The notes under the pieces are model-generated. The model made no database searches and had not been told where the DNA came from. It was given only the letters and a program-made list of their open reading frames with translations. Shown in pieces: positions 1-12,720 of a stretch of 26,764 nt of DNA (the first letter of the stretch is position 1; the number at the start of each line of letters is the position of its first letter). The stretch comes from a virus, in the IMG/VR virus record IMGVR_UViG_3300032246_001130, positions 1-26,764 of that record; one strand, written 5' to 3'. The translations under genes and the position numbers were made by a program.

Positions 1-5
1 AGAAT

Positions 6-133
6 GTTTGTGTTGACAAAGCCTTTGGCTTTGTACAAATGCTTCGCATTTGTTTAATGGTGAGGATAGGGGGGCGGCCAACACAAACTTATCCACAAGG
101 AGGGAAGCCCCTGTGGATAAGTCCTGTGGATAA
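6..133. other. Putative replication origin: DnaA boxes plus tandem hairpins
   Basis: Three exact copies of the consensus DnaA box TTATCCACA are seen: 89-97 on the plus strand, and 112-120 and 125-133 in the opposite orientation, the last two 13 nt apart. Boxes 1 and 2 form an 11-bp inverted repeat (87-97 with 112-122). Just upstream are two adjacent perfect 8-bp hairpins, 16-23/27-34 (ACAAAGCC) and 35-42/46-53 (ACAAATGC), enclosed by a 10-bp inverted repeat GTTTGTGTTG (6-15) with CAACACAAAC (79-88). No coding region lies here; the minus-strand operon ends at 134. Clustered DnaA boxes with inverted repeats are typical of bacterial and plasmid origins, so I infer host DnaA binding. An alternative is that the 87-122 hairpin terminates the minus-strand operon, although its T-run (reading leftward) is short. 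Confidence 0.55.
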
Positions 134-400
134 CTATTCAATGCAAGAGTTGTAGCCTTCCATAGTTGTATCGTTATCGTGTAGATATTGGCACACAACA
201 CAGTACCAACCGCGGTAGTTATCCAAACACTCACCAGAGCATAGGTACTGAAGGTGATGATAACTATCTAGAACCTTAGGCGCACCGCGCCATACGACCT
301 TACGGCATACCGCGCACCTGCGCTCACGGATAGTTTCATAGAGCATTGGGATTAAGAACGGAACTATAAAGAGGCATACGCCCCACTCAAATGTAGTCAT
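134..400 (-). CDS. Membrane-anchored Cys-rich (zinc-ribbon-like) small protein
   Basis: An 88-residue protein of unrecognised family. Residues about 6-24 are hydrophobic (WGVCLFIVPFLIPMLYETI) and should form one membrane helix. Three Cys clusters follow: CAVC near 29-32, CSGEC near 54-58 and CVVC near 67-70, consistent with a zinc-binding domain on the cytoplasmic side. It is the last gene of a three-gene minus-strand operon, its start overlaps the end of the upstream gene by 14 nt, and its stop abuts the DnaA-box cluster. Function is unknown; metal binding is inferred from Cys spacing only. Confidence 0.7.
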   Translation of the reverse strand: MTTFEWGVCLFIVPFLIPMLYETIRERRCAVCRKVVWRGAPKVLDSYHHLQYLCSGECLDNYRGWYCVVCQYLHDNDTTMEGYNSCIE

Positions 401-668
401 TTAGAGCCACCTTCTGTAGTCGTTGGGTAAACTCGCGCACTGCCAAATCGCGAGCAATTTGGATATCTGAGCGTTCATCTAATTCACACTGCCAGCAAGC
501 GCAATCGTAATCTACCCACATGTTCACGCCGTGGATACAGTACTGAGGGCGGAAGCCTTGCTTGTAGTATTGCTCACATTCCTTGCGGTATTCCTCGCGC
601 CGTTGGACAAGCCACTCACGCGCTTCTTTATATAGGGGATAGATTTCTTTAGCGATAGTTGGTCGCAT
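387..668 (-). CDS. Small Cys-rich phage protein, unknown function
   Basis: A 93-residue protein with an N-terminal charged helix (about 8-35, rich in Glu, Arg and Tyr) and a central C-x-H ... DCACWQC cluster at about 44-61 that could hold one zinc ion. The C-terminus is again helical and charged. No family is recognised with certainty; small proteins with a C-x-H-G then C-x-C-x2-C pattern occur in phage accessory regions. It is the middle gene of the minus-strand operon. The upstream gene is separated from it by a 58-nt gap that holds a terminator-like hairpin (692-716), so read-through or a second promoter is needed for its expression. Confidence 0.7.
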   Translation of the reverse strand: MRPTIAKEIYPLYKEAREWLVQRREEYRKECEQYYKQGFRPQYCIHGVNMWVDYDCACWQCELDERSDIQIARDLAVREFTQRLQKVALNDYI

Positions 669-691
669 GATTTATGCCTTTCTAATAAAGA

Positions 692-716
692 GGGGAGGCG
701 CGCCTTGCGCCTCCCC
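692..716 (-). terminator. Rho-independent terminator of the 727-1047 gene
   Basis: A perfect 10-bp GC-rich stem (GGGGAGGCGC 692-701 with GCGCCTCCCC 707-716) has a 5-nt loop. On the minus strand it is followed by TCTTTATT, a moderate T-rich tail. It sits just after the stop of the minus-strand gene 727-1047 and before the start of 387-668, so it probably attenuates transcription between them. Confidence 0.75.
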
Positions 717-726
717 CTACTTCTAT

Positions 727-1047
727 TTAGTTGTATTCGTCGTCATATTGTTCTTGCATTTGACGATTAAACGCGAGCATGTCACTTTCACAAGAGAAGC
801 ATAGGGGGTGACCCTCGCTCATAATGTCGGCGCTTTCGTCCTCACAAGTGAAGCATAGAGCGTCGGTAGGTACAGCCTCGCGGGCTTTTGCGCGTTGGGT
901 CTTGCAACCCTCCGCTTGAGAGTGATACGGGCTAGAGGCTCGCGCCTCAATACAGACATTACATGGCACGACTTCATTGGGACTAACCCAATCGCAACCA
1001 AGCCCGTCTGTATGCCCGCAACAAGGATAATCCTCGCACATGGACAT
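727..1047 (-). CDS. Small multi-Cys zinc-ribbon protein
   Basis: A 106-residue protein with 11 Cys residues arranged in pairs: C4, C9-C10 and C18 in an N-terminal YPCCGHTDGLGC segment, CNVC at 29-32, CFTC near 65-68 and CFSC near 83-86. The N-terminal motif resembles one I recall from other small actinophage proteins; the rest suggests two zinc ribbons. The C-terminus is acidic. The start at 1047 has AAAGGT about 6 nt upstream on the minus strand; the second in-frame ATG two codons in is also possible. First gene of the leftward operon. Function unknown. Confidence 0.7.
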   Translation of the reverse strand: MSMCEDYPCCGHTDGLGCDWVSPNEVVPCNVCIEARASSPYHSQAEGCKTQRAKAREAVPTDALCFTCEDESADIMSEGHPLCFSCESDMLAFNRQMQEQYDDEYN

Positions 1048-1294
1048 AGATAGACCTTTCGTCTAGGTTGGTGGATTTCACACTATAGAATTATCAAAGA
1101 ACAAGCCCGATGTCACGGCAACATATAGAACCACAAGCGCGCCCTATCTATTCCCATACGGCGACTCTCAGACTACTCACAGAATAGAGACCCCCCACGG
1201 TTAAGTGACTCACGCCACAGGACGGGCACCAGGGCTTACGCACCATTTTCATCATTATGGGGGAAGGCAGTAGCCCTTCGTCGCGCTTTGTGAA
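1048..1294. other. Gene-free divergent control region
   Basis: This stretch lies between the divergent starts at 1047 (minus) and 1330 (plus). I see no convincing ORF, tRNA or strong terminator. It holds TATA-like elements on the minus strand (TATAGT and GATAAT, in the reverse complement of about 1081-1100), which may be the leftward promoter, and a weak long-range inverted repeat AGGGCT/AGCCCT around 1230-1276. Nothing else is supported. Confidence 0.4.
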
Positions 1295-1323
1295 TTGACT
1301 GATATTGCCGGTAGGTGTACGGT
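1295..1323 (+). promoter_or_regulatory. Putative sigma70-type promoter for a leaderless gene
   Basis: TTGACT at 1295-1300, a 17-nt spacer and TACGGT at 1318-1323. The -35 is near consensus and the -10 is weak. The -10 ends exactly 6 nt before the ATG at 1330, which would place the transcript start at or next to the start codon. No clear Shine-Dalgarno sequence precedes that ATG. Confidence 0.4.
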
Positions 1324-1329
1324 GCGGTA

Positions 1330-1428
1330 ATGATTATTGGATTATTGATATATATCGGTGCACTCAACACGCTAGGAATCGCCTTTGGTATCTATGGCTA
1401 TGGTTCCGCTAAGGGGTGGTGGAGATGA
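1330..1428 (+). CDS. 32-residue single-pass membrane protein
   Basis: A short ORF: MIIGLLIYIGALNTLGIAFG is hydrophobic, followed by a Gly/Tyr-rich end and a GWWR terminus. It should be one membrane helix with a basic cytoplasmic tail. Support that it is real: it ends in TGA at 1426-1428, overlapping the next ATG at 1425 (an ATGA junction), and it begins a co-directional chain of small genes. Its start lacks a Shine-Dalgarno sequence and appears leaderless. Function unknown. Confidence 0.55.
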   Translation: MIIGLLIYIGALNTLGIAFGIYGYGSAKGWWR

Positions 1429-1628
1429 CACACGATGAATTGCTTACCCATATTGCTATTGATGGCGGAAGTCAAAAGCTTAAAGATGCTCTTCTTGCGG
1501 TAGTGAACCTGCATAAGCCACAAGAAATTACTTTGCCTGATGGCGCATGGGGTACCAATTGTTATGAGTGTAATGGTTTGCAATATCCCTGCCAGACCAT
1601 CCGTGCGATTGAGAAGGAGCTAAAATGA
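1425..1628 (+). CDS. Small actinophage-type Cys protein (YPCxTIRAIE motif)
   Basis: A 67-residue protein. The C-terminal half carries C-x2-C then YPCQTIRAIEKEL, a pattern I recall from many small actinobacteriophage proteins of unknown role, in which the Cys residues probably bind zinc. I prefer the ATG at 1425 over the GTG at 1416: it forms the ATGA overlap with the previous gene and has AAGGGGTGGTGG upstream. It overlaps the next gene by 4 nt (ATGA at 1625). It lies in a chain of mini-proteins and is probably translated by coupling. Confidence 0.7.
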   Translation: MTHDELLTHIAIDGGSQKLKDALLAVVNLHKPQEITLPDGAWGTNCYECNGLQYPCQTIRAIEKELK

Positions 1629-1747
1629 GCAAAGTAGGAGTTAAAGGATATTGCAGTGAGTGTGGCTCGTGGGCAACCGATTGTAAGACTATAATTATCT
1701 ATAGCATTCCAGAGAAGGTCTGCAAAGATTGTCGGGAGAAGCTATGA
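1625..1747 (+). CDS. 40-residue zinc-ribbon mini-protein
   Basis: The ORF encodes 40 residues with Cys at 10, 13, 20, 33 and 36: C-x2-C near the N-terminus and CKDC near the C-terminus, the layout of a minimal zinc ribbon. Both ends use 4-nt ATGA overlaps (1625-1628 and 1744-1747) with co-directional genes, which strongly supports it being coding despite its length. Function unknown; it may be a protein-protein or nucleic-acid binding knuckle. Confidence 0.65.
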   Translation: MSKVGVKGYCSECGSWATDCKTIIIYSIPEKVCKDCREKL

Positions 1748-1875
1748 GTTTAACTGTTCTTTGCTTTGATTGCGGTGGTAGCTACAAAATGCCCCAAGGA
1801 ACGCCTAATCCAACACAGCAATGCCCAAGATGCGATAAAGGAGTTAAGCATGAAGCTACCTACTTGGTGCCATAG
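1744..1875 (+). CDS. 43-residue zinc-ribbon mini-protein
   Basis: The ORF begins at the ATGA junction 1744 and encodes 43 residues: CFDCGG at about 7-12 and CPRCDKG at about 27-33, a classical two-knuckle zinc ribbon (C-x2-C, about 16 residues, C-x2-C), like the FmdB/rubredoxin-type knuckles. It has no other domain. It belongs to the same translationally coupled chain as its neighbours. Confidence 0.65.
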   Translation: MSLTVLCFDCGGSYKMPQGTPNPTQQCPRCDKGVKHEATYLVP

Positions 1876-1900
1876 AATTAAGCTTAAGAAGGAGTCAACT

Positions 1901-2050
1901 ATGAGATGTAATGTATGCAACGACCGTATGGAGCTAGAAGACGCAACACCGGTCTCAACCGCGCAGAAGTTCTCCCTGGAGCCTTTTGAATACTCAGCAC
2001 TCGTCTGTGAAGACTGTGTAGAAGACGTCTTCGAGCTAGACCTAATCTAA
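1901..2050 (+). CDS. 49-residue Cys-pair protein
   Basis: From ATG 1901 the protein is 49 residues with CNVC at 3-6 and CEDC near 39-42, again a zinc-ribbon layout. AAGGAG lies 6 nt upstream in non-coding sequence, which is why I choose this start. An in-frame ATG at 1850 also has AAGGAG 6 nt upstream and would give 66 residues, but it would overlap the previous gene by 26 nt and add a basic segment with no recognisable feature. Unknown function; last gene of the first mini-protein chain. Confidence 0.6.
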   Translation: MRCNVCNDRMELEDATPVSTAQKFSLEPFEYSALVCEDCVEDVFELDLI

Positions 2051-2231
2051 ACAACTTAATATTGGAACGCCCAACGTTGTTTCCCACGGGATGCATAGGG
2101 CGTATGGGGCAACCCACGGTGGGGCAGCACACTAGTTCGACAGACTGCGTTGTTGTACCCGGGGCGCATCACGACTGATGTAGCCTCGGGATAACTTCTT
2201 TGGTGTAAGGCGTATTTTTTTTTCTCGAAGC
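2051..2231. other. Intergenic region without a recognised gene
   Basis: About 180 nt between two co-directional genes. I find no ORF with a credible start on either strand; the minus-strand reading frame here shows no domain. A T-run (about 2215-2223) lies ahead of the -10-like element at 2235. A short TTCGA-containing stretch near 2135 was tested as a tRNA T-arm and does not pair. It could hold a regulatory or small RNA element that I cannot recognise. Confidence 0.35.
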
Positions 2232-2240
2232 TGTCATACT
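2232..2240 (+). promoter_or_regulatory. Extended -10 element for a leaderless gene
   Basis: TGTCATACT is an extended -10 (TGn plus CATACT at 2235-2240). It ends 6 nt before the ATG at 2247, the same spacing as at 1323/1330. No convincing -35 is present, which extended -10 promoters can tolerate, and no Shine-Dalgarno sequence precedes the ATG. Confidence 0.4.
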
Positions 2241-2246
2241 CCTGAC

Positions 2247-2483
2247 ATGAGATTCGTGAGCTGGTTATGGGAACAATTGGATACCAGCGGTCCCTCTTCA
2301 ACATTTGCAAAGATTTGCTGGGATGACGTTAATAATGGGTGCGCGCATGCAAGGTTCGACGCCAATCAATGGTTAAGCCATTTTAAAGATAAACATTCTG
2401 AGAAGATTGACCTATTGACGGAGTTGCTTCTTAGTACTTATTTAGAATACATGGGGGATACTCGACATGAAAAAAAGATGTGA
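2247..2483 (+). CDS. Hypothetical 78-residue protein
   Basis: No family recognised. Composition looks like a real folded protein: aromatic-rich N-terminus (RFVSWLWEQL), a central Cys/His-containing segment (CAHARFDANQWLSHFKDKH) and a Leu-rich helix near the C-terminus. No Shine-Dalgarno site precedes the ATG, while an extended -10 element ends 6 nt upstream, suggesting a leaderless mRNA. Its end overlaps the next small gene by 17 nt. Confidence 0.55.
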   Translation: MRFVSWLWEQLDTSGPSSTFAKICWDDVNNGCAHARFDANQWLSHFKDKHSEKIDLLTELLLSTYLEYMGDTRHEKKM

Positions 2484-2562
2484 ATACTGTGACCATACTT
2501 TGGAGTATGGAATTTGCGAGTACGACGATTGCAAATGTATCTGTTGGAAGGGTAAATCATGA
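2467..2562 (+). CDS. 31-residue Cys-rich mini-protein
   Basis: A short ORF with six Cys residues in 31 (positions 5, 8, 17, 22, 24 and 26), so probably one zinc site. GGGGGA lies about 9 nt upstream, within the end of the previous gene. It ends in the ATGA junction at 2559 with the next gene, supporting translation. Unknown function. Confidence 0.55.
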   Translation: MKKRCEYCDHTLEYGICEYDDCKCICWKGKS

Positions 2563-2819
2563 AAGACCCAGCATTAGGTCGTACACGCGCTGAGCGCGCA
2601 CTAGGCGAAGGCCACCCTAATAGAACAAAGAAAGCTTCTACTAAGAAGGTTGTCAAGTCACCTTTTAAAAGCCAGAATCAAAAAAGCAAATTAGAAGAGT
2701 TAAGAGTTGTACATGTTGGTCAGTATGACGGGCCAAAGGCTTCCTATGGACGATACAATGTATCTAAGACTGCATCTGATGGGTTGAACCGTCAGAAGCG
2801 CAATATGGACGCGAGGTAA
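2559..2819 (+). CDS. Small basic protein, unknown
   Basis: An 86-residue protein rich in Lys and Arg (a KKASTKKVVKSPFK stretch in the middle), without Cys. The N-terminal segment has an RTRAERALGEGHPNRTKKA patch. It is predicted soluble and likely nucleic-acid associated or disordered. It starts at the ATGA junction with the Cys mini-protein upstream and ends 3 nt before the next gene. It begins the run of lysine-rich proteins that continues to 5803. Confidence 0.65.
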   Translation: MKDPALGRTRAERALGEGHPNRTKKASTKKVVKSPFKSQNQKSKLEELRVVHVGQYDGPKASYGRYNVSKTASDGLNRQKRNMDAR

Positions 2820-2822
2820 GTC

Positions 2823-4214
2823 ATGAAAGAAGCAGTAAGCGGTGGCAGTGACGTTGCAACAACCGGCGTTAATAAAGTAAACGGCTCTTATCAGTTTGCG
2901 TCCCTTGCAGTACCGGATACTTTTAAACCAAGCGAGTTTCCTTCCGTAGCGCCTGCCGCGGCGCCTACCGCTTTTGTTGGGCCTATTCCAGCTACAGCTA
3001 CACGAACAGAGACTGGTTACACAAAAGCCTCAGGTACTGAAGTAATACCGAACCCTGCGCCAAAGCCTGCACCGACACCAGCTACCTCTAATCAGTTCTC
3101 TGGTATTTCTAATAATGCAGACTCTACTGCAACTGTAAAAACACCGGAAGTTAAATTAACAAATACTCCAGTTACAAAAACAGCAACCCCTAAGAAAAGT
3201 CTTCTTGGGTACGCGGCTCCATTTATAAATGTAGGATTAGACGTATTGACAGCTGCTGACGTTGCTGGGGCTGTTGCTGGAGCGCCTTTTACTGGAGGAG
3301 CAAGTGCAGCTGCTGGTGCAGCAGGTGCAGCCGGTCTACAAGGTTTAAAGTTTGGAGTAAAACAAGCTATTAAAGCTGAGACTAAAAGAGAAACTAAAAC
3401 TTATGCAGAAAAAGCAGCTGCTATTGCTGCCGAAAAAGCTGCGGCAAAGACATCTATTAAAGACTATGGGGCTGCTGTTCCTAAACAAAAAGCACCTTCT
3501 TATCCAAAACCTGGAACACGTTCTACTACTATAGGTGACCATCCCACATTTACTCCGCCTAAAGCTCCTATGCCAAAAGTTAAAGCTCCAGAAATTACTT
3601 CACCAAAAGTTAAAGCCCCAGAGATTACTCCACCAAAGGTTACTACACCAAAAGTTAACCCTAAGCCACTATCCGCTTCAAGCATAGCAACAGCTGGCGC
3701 TGGAACTGCAGCTACGGTGGAGGCTGGTATGATTGCTGCTGGTGGTAATTCATCTAAGACAAATAGAAAAAACGAATTTGAATCTGGTATGGGCCCGGGT
3801 TCTTCTTTCCGAAAAAACCTAGACAGTATTATTCCTAAGGTAACGCCTGAAATCACTACTTCAACTAAATTAAATCCTAACCCTAATCCTAACCCTAATC
3901 CTAACCCTAATCCTAACCCTAATCCTAACCCTAATCCTAACCCTAATCCTAGAAAACCAAACCTTCCTCCAGAAGAACCAAACATTCCTAAACCTGGTAT
4001 AGATACAGGTCTAGGCCTAAATCCCATAAACCATCCAGGTACGGCCCCAGATGACGTAACATATACGACCCCAGAACCAGAATTTAACCCAAAACCAGAA
4101 AACCCTCCTAAAACAGTAGTCGGTACTAAGGTAGAAGAAAAAAAGAAACGCCCTCGTCCTCGTATTAAAGTTAAGGGTCAGGGTAGCCAATGGAATCCGA
4201 GCTCAATCGTATGA
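2823..4214 (+). CDS. Long Ala/Pro/Lys-rich protein with Asn-Pro repeat
   Basis: A 463-residue low-complexity protein, unrecognised. Layout: Ala/Pro/Thr-rich N-terminus (1-125); a Gly/Ala-rich hydrophobic region at about 127-175 that could insert in a membrane; a helical Lys/Ala-rich stretch (175-215); KVKAPEIT-type repeats (about 245-280); a second short hydrophobic Ala/Gly patch (about 283-305); 13 consecutive Asn-Pro pairs near residues 351-376; and a Pro/Lys-rich tail. Such modular, disordered and partly membrane-active composition fits a virion internal or ejection protein, but this is inference. It ends in an ATGA junction with the next gene. Confidence 0.7.
   Translation: MKEAVSGGSDVATTGVNKVNGSYQFASLAVPDTFKPSEFPSVAPAAAPTAFVGPIPATATRTETGYTKASGTEVIPNPAPKPAPTPATSNQFSGISNNADSTATVKTPEVKLTNTPVTKTATPKKSLLGYAAPFINVGLDVLTAADVAGAVAGAPFTGGASAAAGAAGAAGLQGLKFGVKQAIKAETKRETKTYAEKAAAIAAEKAAAKTSIKDYGAAVPKQKAPSYPKPGTRSTTIGDHPTFTPPKAPMPKVKAPEITSPKVKAPEITPPKVTTPKVNPKPLSASSIATAGAGTAATVEAGMIAAGGNSSKTNRKNEFESGMGPGSSFRKNLDSIIPKVTPEITTSTKLNPNPNPNPNPNPNPNPNPNPNPNPNPRKPNLPPEEPNIPKPGIDTGLGLNPINHPGTAPDDVTYTTPEPEFNPKPENPPKTVVGTKVEEKKKRPRPRIKVKGQGSQWNPSSIV
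3873..3950 (+). repeat. 12-nt tandem repeat encoding (Asn-Pro)13
   Basis: The unit AATCCTAACCCT repeats 6.5 times without interruption over 78 nt, giving 13 Asn-Pro pairs within the 463-residue protein. Units are identical at the DNA level, including alternation of the Asn codons AAT and AAC, so the array expanded by unit duplication. The unit length is a multiple of three, so slippage would change length without shifting the frame. Confidence 0.95.
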
Positions 4215-10396: not shown

Positions 10397-12151
10397 ATGG
10401 CTTCCTATCCATCCCAAGTAGCGACTTTCCCCACACACGTTAATATCACTGAGATTATTGATGCGTCTCACCCTAATAATATTCAAGGTGAAGTTGTTGC
10501 TATTGAGTCTACCATTGGTGTTGACCCAACTACCTCTACCACGCCTAGCCCAAGCGGTACATTTAACGGCACTTCTACAACTTTTAGCTCTGTAAAAGCG
10601 CGCATTGATAATATTGAAACTGGCGTAGTATCTGATGCGCACACTCAATACATTCGTAAAACTGGTGATACCGCCAACGTTATTATTCCAAGCGCCATCA
10701 CTACTAAAGGCCTTATTGTAAAAGCCACTTCGGGTCAGACAGCCAATCTTCAAGAGTGGCAAACCTCTGGTGGAACAGCTACAACTTACATTAACTCTTC
10801 TGGCGCGCTTATTGGAACTGCTTCTGGAAACGTAGCGCTATCTACCGTTACAGCTGCGGGTGACCTTATTATTGGTACGGGCTCAGGTGCGGTAAGCAAT
10901 CTTGCAATTGGGACTAACGGTCTCGCATTGGTATCTAATGGAACAACTGCTTCATGGCAGGTACCAACAGATACAACTAAGATTCCTCTTTCAACAGTAA
11001 CAACTGCTGGAGACATTATTGTTGCTACAGGCTCAGGAGCGGTAACACGTGTAGCTCTTGGAACAAACGGTCAAGTTCTTAAGAGCAACGGTACTACTAC
11101 AGTTTGGGCAGACTCTGTTCAAGGTACAACAGGTGCGCAAGGAACAACAGGTTCTCAAGGAATTCAAGGTACTCAAGGTACTCAAGGTTCACAAGGAACA
11201 ACTGGCATTCAAGGAACACAAGGACTGACTGGTCTTCAGGGTACTACAGGAACGCAAGGCATATCTGGTGCTGTAGGCGCGCAAGGTACTCAAGGAAGTC
11301 AAGGAACTTTAGGTTTACAAGGAACAATAGGGGCTCAAGGTATTACGGGTACTCAGGGTACTACTGGCACTCAAGGCACAACCGGTATACAGGGCATTCA
11401 AGGAATAACTGGGGCTCAGGGAACTACAGGCTCTCAAGGTATTCAAGGCGCACAAGGTATTGGTTATATTGGTGTAACTTCAACAACACTATTGACACCA
11501 GCTAGCACAGGAACTATAACTGTTACTACAAATACTCAAGGCGCTTTTATATCAGGTAATCGCATTAGAGTTATTAATACCGTATCTAACTACTTTGAAG
11601 GTGTTGTAACAATCACTAGCGGTACTACTTTTGCGGTAGCAGCCGACTACAGTGTTGGGACAACTCAAGCTAGCAACTGGACCGTAGTCCTTGCTGGAAC
11701 CGTAGGCCCACAGGGTATTCAAGGCATTCAAGGAACGTTTGGAACACAAGGCGTGCAGGGAACTGTTGGAGTAAGCCTTCCAACACAAACAGGTAACGGT
11801 GGAAAGTATTTAACAACCGATGGCTCTACAGCATCCTGGGGAACCGCTCAAGCTAAGTTCACTGTTAATACAACAGCTAAAACCGCTGCTTACACATTAG
11901 CAAGCACAGACTATGAATCTATGGTTCAAATGAATGGCGCATTTGCTTTTACGATTGATACATCTTTAAGCGCAGCTCCGGCAGGAACACAGATTCATTT
12001 GCTTGCTTTGTCCTCAGGCGTATCAGTAACAGCAACAGGCGTTACGGTAAACGCTACCCCAGGTCTTAAGCTGCGTACTTCATATTCGTCAGCAACTCTT
12101 ATTTGCCTAGGCACTAACAACTGGGTTCTTATCGGTGATTTGAGCGCGTAA
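10397..12151 (+). CDS. Collagen-like tail fibre protein
   Basis: A 584-residue receptor-binding fibre. Visible layout: an N-terminal virion-attachment-like segment; SDAHTQYIRKTGD near 80-95, a motif frequent in phage tail fibres; two tandem copies of about 45 residues (LSTVTxAGDxIxxTGSGAV ... GTNG, about 148-240); a Gly-x-y collagen-like stretch at about 242-357; a beta domain (VTSTTLLTPASTGTITVTT) at 358-435; a second short Gly-x-y stretch (about 436-458); and a C-terminal head domain of about 125 residues. Gly-Thr-Gln/Gly-Ile-Gln triplets are usual in phage collagen-like fibres, which form trimers. SD GAAAGGA lies upstream, and the stop overlaps the next gene (TAATG). Confidence 0.85.
   Translation: MASYPSQVATFPTHVNITEIIDASHPNNIQGEVVAIESTIGVDPTTSTTPSPSGTFNGTSTTFSSVKARIDNIETGVVSDAHTQYIRKTGDTANVIIPSAITTKGLIVKATSGQTANLQEWQTSGGTATTYINSSGALIGTASGNVALSTVTAAGDLIIGTGSGAVSNLAIGTNGLALVSNGTTASWQVPTDTTKIPLSTVTTAGDIIVATGSGAVTRVALGTNGQVLKSNGTTTVWADSVQGTTGAQGTTGSQGIQGTQGTQGSQGTTGIQGTQGLTGLQGTTGTQGISGAVGAQGTQGSQGTLGLQGTIGAQGITGTQGTTGTQGTTGIQGIQGITGAQGTTGSQGIQGAQGIGYIGVTSTTLLTPASTGTITVTTNTQGAFISGNRIRVINTVSNYFEGVVTITSGTTFAVAADYSVGTTQASNWTVVLAGTVGPQGIQGIQGTFGTQGVQGTVGVSLPTQTGNGGKYLTTDGSTASWGTAQAKFTVNTTAKTAAYTLASTDYESMVQMNGAFAFTIDTSLSAAPAGTQIHLLALSSGVSVTATGVTVNATPGLKLRTSYSSATLICLGTNNWVLIGDLSA
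11122..11466 (+). repeat. Gly-x-y collagen-like codon repeat
   Basis: A degenerate 9-nt periodic region (ggt/gga-NNN-caa patterns) encodes about 38 Gly-x-y triplets of the tail fibre. The triplets vary in the x and y residues, with Thr, Ile and Gln predominant. Tandem repeats of this kind are prone to recombination and length change. Confidence 0.9.
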
Positions 12152-12720
12152 TGCCAATCCCAGGTAATACGTCCTCTGAGGGTAAGAAGCCCAACACCCC
12201 TACAGTGGGCACTGCTTCATCTAGCGACTCTTCAGCTAGTCTATCTTTTACCCCCTCCACTTACGTTGGAAAAAACACTATCACTTACTATGCCACCTCT
12301 AATCCTGGAGGGGTACAGGGAACATCAACCTCTTCTCCTATTTCTATATCTGGATTAAATAATGGAACTGCGTATACATTTGTTGTAAACGGATTAACTA
12401 ACTACGGTGTAACCTCAGATACTTCTTCTTCATCTAACTCTGTAACTCCAACGGCTCCGGTTTATTATGCACCACCCGTTTATTACGCAGCTCCTCAATA
12501 TTATGCAGCTCCTGAATACTACGCTGCACCTGTTTATTATGCAGCCCCTCAATATTATGCAGCCCCTCAATATTATGCAGCCCCTCAATACTACGCTGCA
12601 CCTGTTTATTATGCACCAGTATGTATTAATTACACCTGTACATCTCAAAACGTCAGAAACGGTATTTGCGGACCTGCTGGCTGTAATGGCGGAACAGGTT
12701 CTTGCTGTCAATACGGTTAA
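12151..12720 (+). CDS. FN3-domain protein with YYAAP repeats and Cys-rich end
   Basis: A 189-residue protein. Residues about 15-105 look like a fibronectin type III domain (ASLSFTPSTYVGKNTITYYA ... ISGLNNGTAYTFVVNGLTNYG). Residues about 103-158 are nine YYA[A]P units. The last 35 residues hold seven Cys (VCINYTC ... ICGPAGC ... SCCQYG), perhaps disulfide-linked or zinc-binding. It follows the tail fibre by TAATG coupling, so it is likely a tail-tip or adhesive accessory. The YYAAP tract resembles adhesive repeats seen in other aquatic phages, in my recollection. Confidence 0.75.
   Translation: MPIPGNTSSEGKKPNTPTVGTASSSDSSASLSFTPSTYVGKNTITYYATSNPGGVQGTSTSSPISISGLNNGTAYTFVVNGLTNYGVTSDTSSSSNSVTPTAPVYYAPPVYYAAPQYYAAPEYYAAPVYYAAPQYYAAPQYYAAPQYYAAPVYYAPVCINYTCTSQNVRNGICGPAGCNGGTGSCCQYG
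12457..12621 (+). repeat. 18-nt tandem repeat encoding YYAAPx
   Basis: Nine hexapeptide-like YYA(A)Px units; three of the middle units (about 12535-12590) are identical at the DNA level (TATTATGCAGCCCCTCAA), which points to recent duplication. The outer copies differ in their third codon positions. Confidence 0.9.

Follow-up and report, generated by a model that had tools for sequence, protein, structure and literature searches.

Conserved fold-back elements and predicted host DnaA sites recur at gene boundaries in a group of actinophages

A cluster of exact DnaA boxes next to nested hairpins in a phage genome raises the question of whether such a structure is an origin of replication fired by the initiator of the host or serves a different function. 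The case considered here is located at the left end of a virus record from IMG/VR that was analyzed over its entire length of 26,764 bases (hereafter, the window). The original prediction presented this locus as an origin-like element through which a phage with no replication gene in view could replicate, in an episome-like manner, by means of host DnaA, or alternatively titrate DnaA. The description of the structure proved accurate: the three DnaA-box 9-mers within 45 nt, the inverted and the tandem box pairs (the latter with a 13-nt period), and the two 8-bp hairpins held inside a 10-bp inverted repeat were all found again, the hairpins and repeat exactly (Table 1). A Markov estimate yields approximately 0.2 exact boxes expected in the window versus the three that are present, and 0 of 300 Markov simulations contained three boxes within 45 nt. 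The predicted fold of positions 1-140 is more stable than those of all 200 shuffled sequences with the same dinucleotide composition (z about -6).

Table 1. Sequence features identified at the left end of the window
Feature	Position	Strand	Basis and remarks
Fold-back element: GTTTGTGTTGGCC, C-rich spacer, two hairpins, CAACACAAAC	6-88	- (gene direction)	Inverted repeats; same element in L002; 51 distinct family members in relatives
Terminal inverted-repeat arm GTTTGTGTTG	6-15		Exact complement of 79-88; nearly invariant family core
Inner hairpin 1, ACAAAGCC TTT GGCTTTGT	16-34 (arms 16-23/27-34)		8 bp, 3-nt loop; inverted repeat, folding
Inner hairpin 2, ACAAATGC TTC GCATTTGT	35-53 (arms 35-42/46-53)		8 bp, 3-nt loop; inverted repeat, folding
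Spacer rich in G (in C when read on the minus strand), corresponding to the CCCACCC spacer of relatives	54-78		Comparison with relatives
Terminal inverted-repeat arm CAACACAAAC	79-88		Inverted repeat; family core
14-bp hairpin formed by boxes 1 and 2; minus-strand tail GTTTGTGTT	87-122	-	Inverted repeat (87-100/109-122, 14 nt, 93% complementary), folding
DnaA box 1, TTATCCACA, directly abutting the fold-back element	89-97	+	Exact match; kept in L002
DnaA box 2, forming an inverted pair with box 1	112-120	-	Exact match; kept in L002
DnaA box 3, in tandem with box 2 (CCTGTGGATAA copies, 13 nt apart)	125-133	-	Exact match; kept in L002
Small gene, the last in the leftward operon ending at the module	134-400	-	ORF and family search; no family match

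The hairpin formed by boxes 1 and 2 could also terminate the transcript of the adjacent leftward gene; it has a stable stem but only GTTTGTGTT as a tail, and is absent from the terminator-scan calls on the window. Scans of the window for Rfam families, tRNAs and sigma-70 promoters returned nothing useful. Elsewhere, tandem TGAGAGT repeats accompanied by a GGGAATAGAT motif are found upstream of leftward genes (window 1140-1200 and L002:10584-10700) and are possibly another operator and promoter.

The products of the window genes include a terminase large subunit, an SPP1-type portal and a major capsid protein. The terminase is 81-99% identical to the terminases of 17 other records, several of which are 90-100 kb long, and the capsids are similar as well; the window is a fragment of an actinophage genome of ~95-100 kb. 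The close relatives are all metagenomic contigs in which gene starts were called mechanically, and the isolated relatives are the Streptomyces phages BRock, GiJojo, LuckySocke, Alone3 and pSt2308 (112-116 kb; about 53% identity in the terminase and about 70% in the capsid), among which GiJojo is a cluster BS myovirus (PMC11465772). A further terminase relative, at 56% identity, sits in an Actinomadura contig, and a blastn search of window positions 1-2800 against phage records produced no match. The window also encodes highly repetitive virion-type proteins (2823-4214, 10397-12151 and 12151-12720) with an NP dipeptide run, GTQG collagen-like repeats and YYAAPQ repeats. The apparent lack of replication genes is misleading, because the record covers only 26.8 kb of the genome and which genes it retains depends on where it was cut: the 100 kb relative G012 has its own replisome genes, encoding a DnaB-like helicase, a Toprim primase, an SNF2-type helicase, a family A DNA polymerase and RecA, along with ribonucleotide reductase.

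With respect to the protein that would recognize the boxes, a phage-encoded DnaA was rejected, no homologue having been detected in 16 phage records. Judging by nucleotide composition, the actinobacterial relatives and the analogy with phages of Ca. Planktophila, the hosts are presumably small low-GC actinomycetes. The known Ca. Planktophila phages belong to a different phage group and also encode sigma factors (PMC10202952). Low-GC actinomycetes with small genomes (1.3-1.6 Mb) have pairs of TTATCCACA in the interval from dnaA to dnaN; one of them also has such pairs at the start of dnaA. The boxes in the window are predicted, with high probability, to be sites for the DnaA of the host. To this extent, the combination of a host DnaA motif with hairpins can be retained, the hairpins being a conserved structured element, and the part of the prediction that lacks support is the single origin with episome-like replication.

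A survey of relatives for conservation of the boxes recovered the fold-back and all three boxes in the nearest one, contig L002 (record G001; 99% identity in the terminase), which extends further to the left. There, it carries a minus-strand gene for an ECF-type sigma factor (Sigma70_r2 and Sigma70_r4_2; sigma70-ECF superfamily), the start of which is ~200 bp away from the boxes, with the fold-back intervening. Beyond this gene follow a hairpin rich in GC, another inverted pair of boxes and the start of a further copy of the element, at which the contig ends. A close homologue of the sigma factor gene (L002:10703-11230) was not found elsewhere in the viral collection. The contig L003 also terminates inside an element of the same family, so that three contigs, including the window, break in or at a fold-back, which would explain the poor assembly of these phage genomes.

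A strict pattern derived from the window hairpins matched only L002 as a true copy, and the notion that the element is unique to these two contigs was rejected once the broader pattern GTTTGTGTTGGCCCACCC uncovered a family. The intergenic regions of the leftward block were read in G012, G004 and G005, and then in the records that match GTTTGTGTTGGCCCACCC (43 stretches). The collection comprises 51 distinct fold-backs of 59-143 nt within the leftward block of small genes, the majority of them directly after a terminator, and the order in the direction of the genes is: upstream gene, T-run terminator hairpin, fold-back bounded by GTTTGTGTTG and CAACACAAAC, short gap, operator, next gene. The outer 10 bp of the fold-backs are almost invariant, and the inner arms vary in sequence yet stay complementary. 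Changes in the outer arms (T6 to G in G012 and, in some copies, T9 to C) are matched by a change in the opposite arm, and in 27 strong hairpins, 96% of arm positions 11-20 are paired with their own partner compared to 51% across elements. This excess of within-element pairing reflects compensatory change and implies selection on the fold-back, either for its structure or for a symmetric site recognized by a protein. All three fold-backs in the leftward block of G012 contain GTTTGGGT on both arms in place of GTTTGTGT, a concerted change that suggests a trans-acting partner or gene conversion. Some copies, that of the window included, have a short outer stem, internal hairpins and C-rich spacers. 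The window copy further represents a subtype in which the boxes follow the preceding gene and lie on the terminator side of the fold-back, and two of its three boxes are oriented opposite to those of most relatives; the same order is found in G019 (80.9 kb) and G025 (16.2 kb). The motif CAACACAAAC by itself is enriched as well (61 occurrences versus about 3 expected, many of these copies being coding or redundant). At L013:9348, L018:6544, L031:9223 and similar positions, this fold-back end is found right after a terminator-like hairpin, and the gene that follows the capsid gene has its start codon ~30 nt further on. A search of 151 genomes from the likely host order did not recover the fold-back element.

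An exact DnaA box is present within 45 nt of 32 of the 51 fold-backs, compared to 0.4% of random positions in the same genomes, and the reversed motif used as a control occurs beside none of the 51. Genomes with DnaA boxes mostly possess 3-10 sites apart from one another, and almost all of these share a strand; examples are G032 and G027 (10 each), G034 (8), G023 (7), and G012 and G030 (6 each), with the large majority of the sites inside the leftward block. In the relatives, the boxes lie upstream of genes and are consistently oriented relative to the gene. The general consensus of the DnaA box is TT(A/T)TNCACA, and the variants TTATACACA and TTTTCCACA that flank exact boxes fit this consensus. 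Hexamers resembling the -10 element peak 39-40 nt past the box (9 of 30 sites), a modest signal given that the related phages are not independent.

The position of the box can be taken by a different motif or by none. In G025, all five modules contain TGTGA-N6-TCACA in place of the box, 18-26 nt from the element (five of eight cases); the 6-nt spacer is specific, accounting for 13 matches, and other spacers for 0-3 each. This motif resembles CRP/GlxR operators. Sites of the same type are found next to or near fold-backs in the leftward block of G029. No DnaA boxes were detected in G020 and G021, and no box clusters in LuckySocke, an isolated Streptomyces phage with the same gene plan; the boxes are accordingly dispensable in the wider lineage. 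LuckySocke contains six Streptomyces-type boxes (TTGTCCACA), which are scattered inside annotated genes and do not cluster.

The leftward block differs between phages in gene content. A unit of ~0.85 kb in G032, consisting of one gene with its element, is absent from G024, and the junction is at the box and element; other pairs of genomes also differ in gene content along the block. These comparisons support, without proving, the view that the modules are boundaries of cassettes.

The repetition, position, strand bias and structure of the module are observed directly, as is the presence of DnaA or CRP-like sites beside it; DnaA binding, an effect on transcription and the role of the fold-back are inferred. 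The explanation that we favor, and consider reasonably probable, is that the structure in the window is a cassette-boundary module where host DnaA would act mainly on the transcription of cassettes. In the leftward array of small genes, each module would combine the terminator of the upstream gene, the fold-back, an operator for a host protein and the promoter of the next gene. With DnaA boxes as the operator in the window phage and many relatives, host DnaA would most likely modulate cassette transcription, and the fold-back would most likely insulate the neighboring units and offer shared homology for the gain and loss of cassettes; insulator, recombination site and protein site are its candidate roles. 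In the window copy, where the boxes come before the fold-back in gene direction, the next gene would be, as in the nearest relative, that of the ECF sigma factor. Several observations weigh against this explanation: the distance between boxes and sigma gene, spanned by the fold-back, is large for direct activation, two of the three boxes have the less common orientation, the -10 signal is modest and comes from phages that are not independent, the hosts are assigned by indirect criteria, and LuckySocke, G020 and G021 do without clustered boxes or without boxes altogether.

As a transcription factor, DnaA is well established; in phage lambda, it activates transcription at ori-lambda (PMC8203912; PMC3985674). 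The lambda case is similar in that a phage promoter region contains host DnaA sites, but there a single regulatory region is tied to the origin, whereas the module places a site at each of many cassettes, with no origin function indicated. The extended start-associated sequences (ESAS) of cluster K mycobacteriophages (PMC3203893) are likewise inverted repeats upstream of many small genes, with a phage-specific consensus and a function that is unknown. Unlike the module, however, the ESAS are 17-bp imperfect repeats, mostly with 4-13 bp spacers, and are tied to the SAS near start codons; the fold-backs are 59-143 nt long, have variable complementary arms, lie between terminator and promoter and are accompanied by boxes for a host factor. 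The SAS motif GGGATAGGAGCCC has no match in the window at up to 2 mismatches and none in the four relatives tested at up to 1 mismatch. Arrays of integron attC sites also consist of variable fold-backs with conserved ends between gene cassettes; identity with attC was rejected, the core order being reversed (GTTGGGC...GCCCAAC versus RYYYAAC...GTTRRRY) and no PF00589 tyrosine recombinase being detected in the 16 phage records.

Could the boxes simply act as a decoy, with many copies on replicating phage DNA titrating DnaA and thereby halting initiation in the host? This is unlikely: the boxes, up to 10-11 per genome, would be multiplied by the phage copy number, but the fixed location beside each cassette and the CRP-type replacement in G025 fit gene control better, and boxes are few or absent in several relatives. 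Titration of DnaA is a possible by-product. It is equally improbable that the sites belong to a phage repressor or another regulator, with an operator that merely resembles the DnaA box. GATAAC-type palindromes and repeats of ATAAC are found both next to boxes and where boxes are lacking, and the arrangement looks like the stoperators of mycobacteriophages, which are operators dispersed on one strand; however, the 9-mer itself is maintained as single copies, tandem pairs and inverted pairs with variable spacing, some of the neighboring sites follow the DnaA consensus, and no such repressor has been identified.

An origin in the strict sense, where DnaA would bind the cluster, open the DNA and load the helicase, has to be regarded as quite improbable, even though the boxes match the consensus exactly and form inverted and tandem pairs as in oriC-type arrays, and LuckySocke encodes a DnaC-like helicase loader. 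An origin occupies one or a few loci, whereas the boxes are found at many sites per genome, six to ten of these at successive gene boundaries, and members of the family have CRP-like sites, or none, instead. The core replication genes of G012 are ~20-35 kb away, and no AT-rich stretch suitable for unwinding stands out (60-nt windows in the box region have AT contents of 0.45-0.63, with no marked peak). A replication origin is normally located near the minimum of the cumulative GC skew; in nine near-complete relatives, this minimum, confounded as it is by gene strand, is never at the block. The original proposal of replication through host DnaA is further disfavored by the replisome encoded in G012 and by the lack of a detectable integrase in 16 phage records (PF00589 search). 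One of the box sites may nevertheless contribute to replication as well.

Control of DNA entry similar to that by the injection stop signal of phage T5 is the least credible alternative and is very improbable: the T5 terminal repeat does combine inverted repeats near early genes with three exact boxes (two between the pre-early promoters and one in the annotated iss), but it is a single locus, whereas the present sites recur over many gene boundaries of an internal block, and the T5 region lacks the GTTTGTGTTG element and shares no other sequence element with the module. The T5 iss has been described as containing repeats, palindromes and DnaA boxes (PMC13250531). The exact boxes map to L381:622, 695 and 4011, so T5 is a precedent for DnaA boxes near early phage promoters, although their function there is not settled.

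Returning to the cassette-boundary module, the large freshwater phages that carry it probably tie gene expression, rather than replication, to host DnaA, and clusters of DnaA boxes in phages should not be called origins without a survey of relatives. More speculatively, the early accessory genes of lytic freshwater actinophages might be exchangeable cassettes, separated by fold-backs that serve as recombination sites or insulators and equipped with interchangeable operators for DnaA or a CRP/GlxR-type regulator, such that an infection would read the replication or energy state of the host gene by gene. If so, a family of freshwater phages would have the replication initiator of its host feed into the transcription of many genes simultaneously, and relatives that exchange DnaA for another host regulator would provide a natural experiment on the sensing of host state by viruses.
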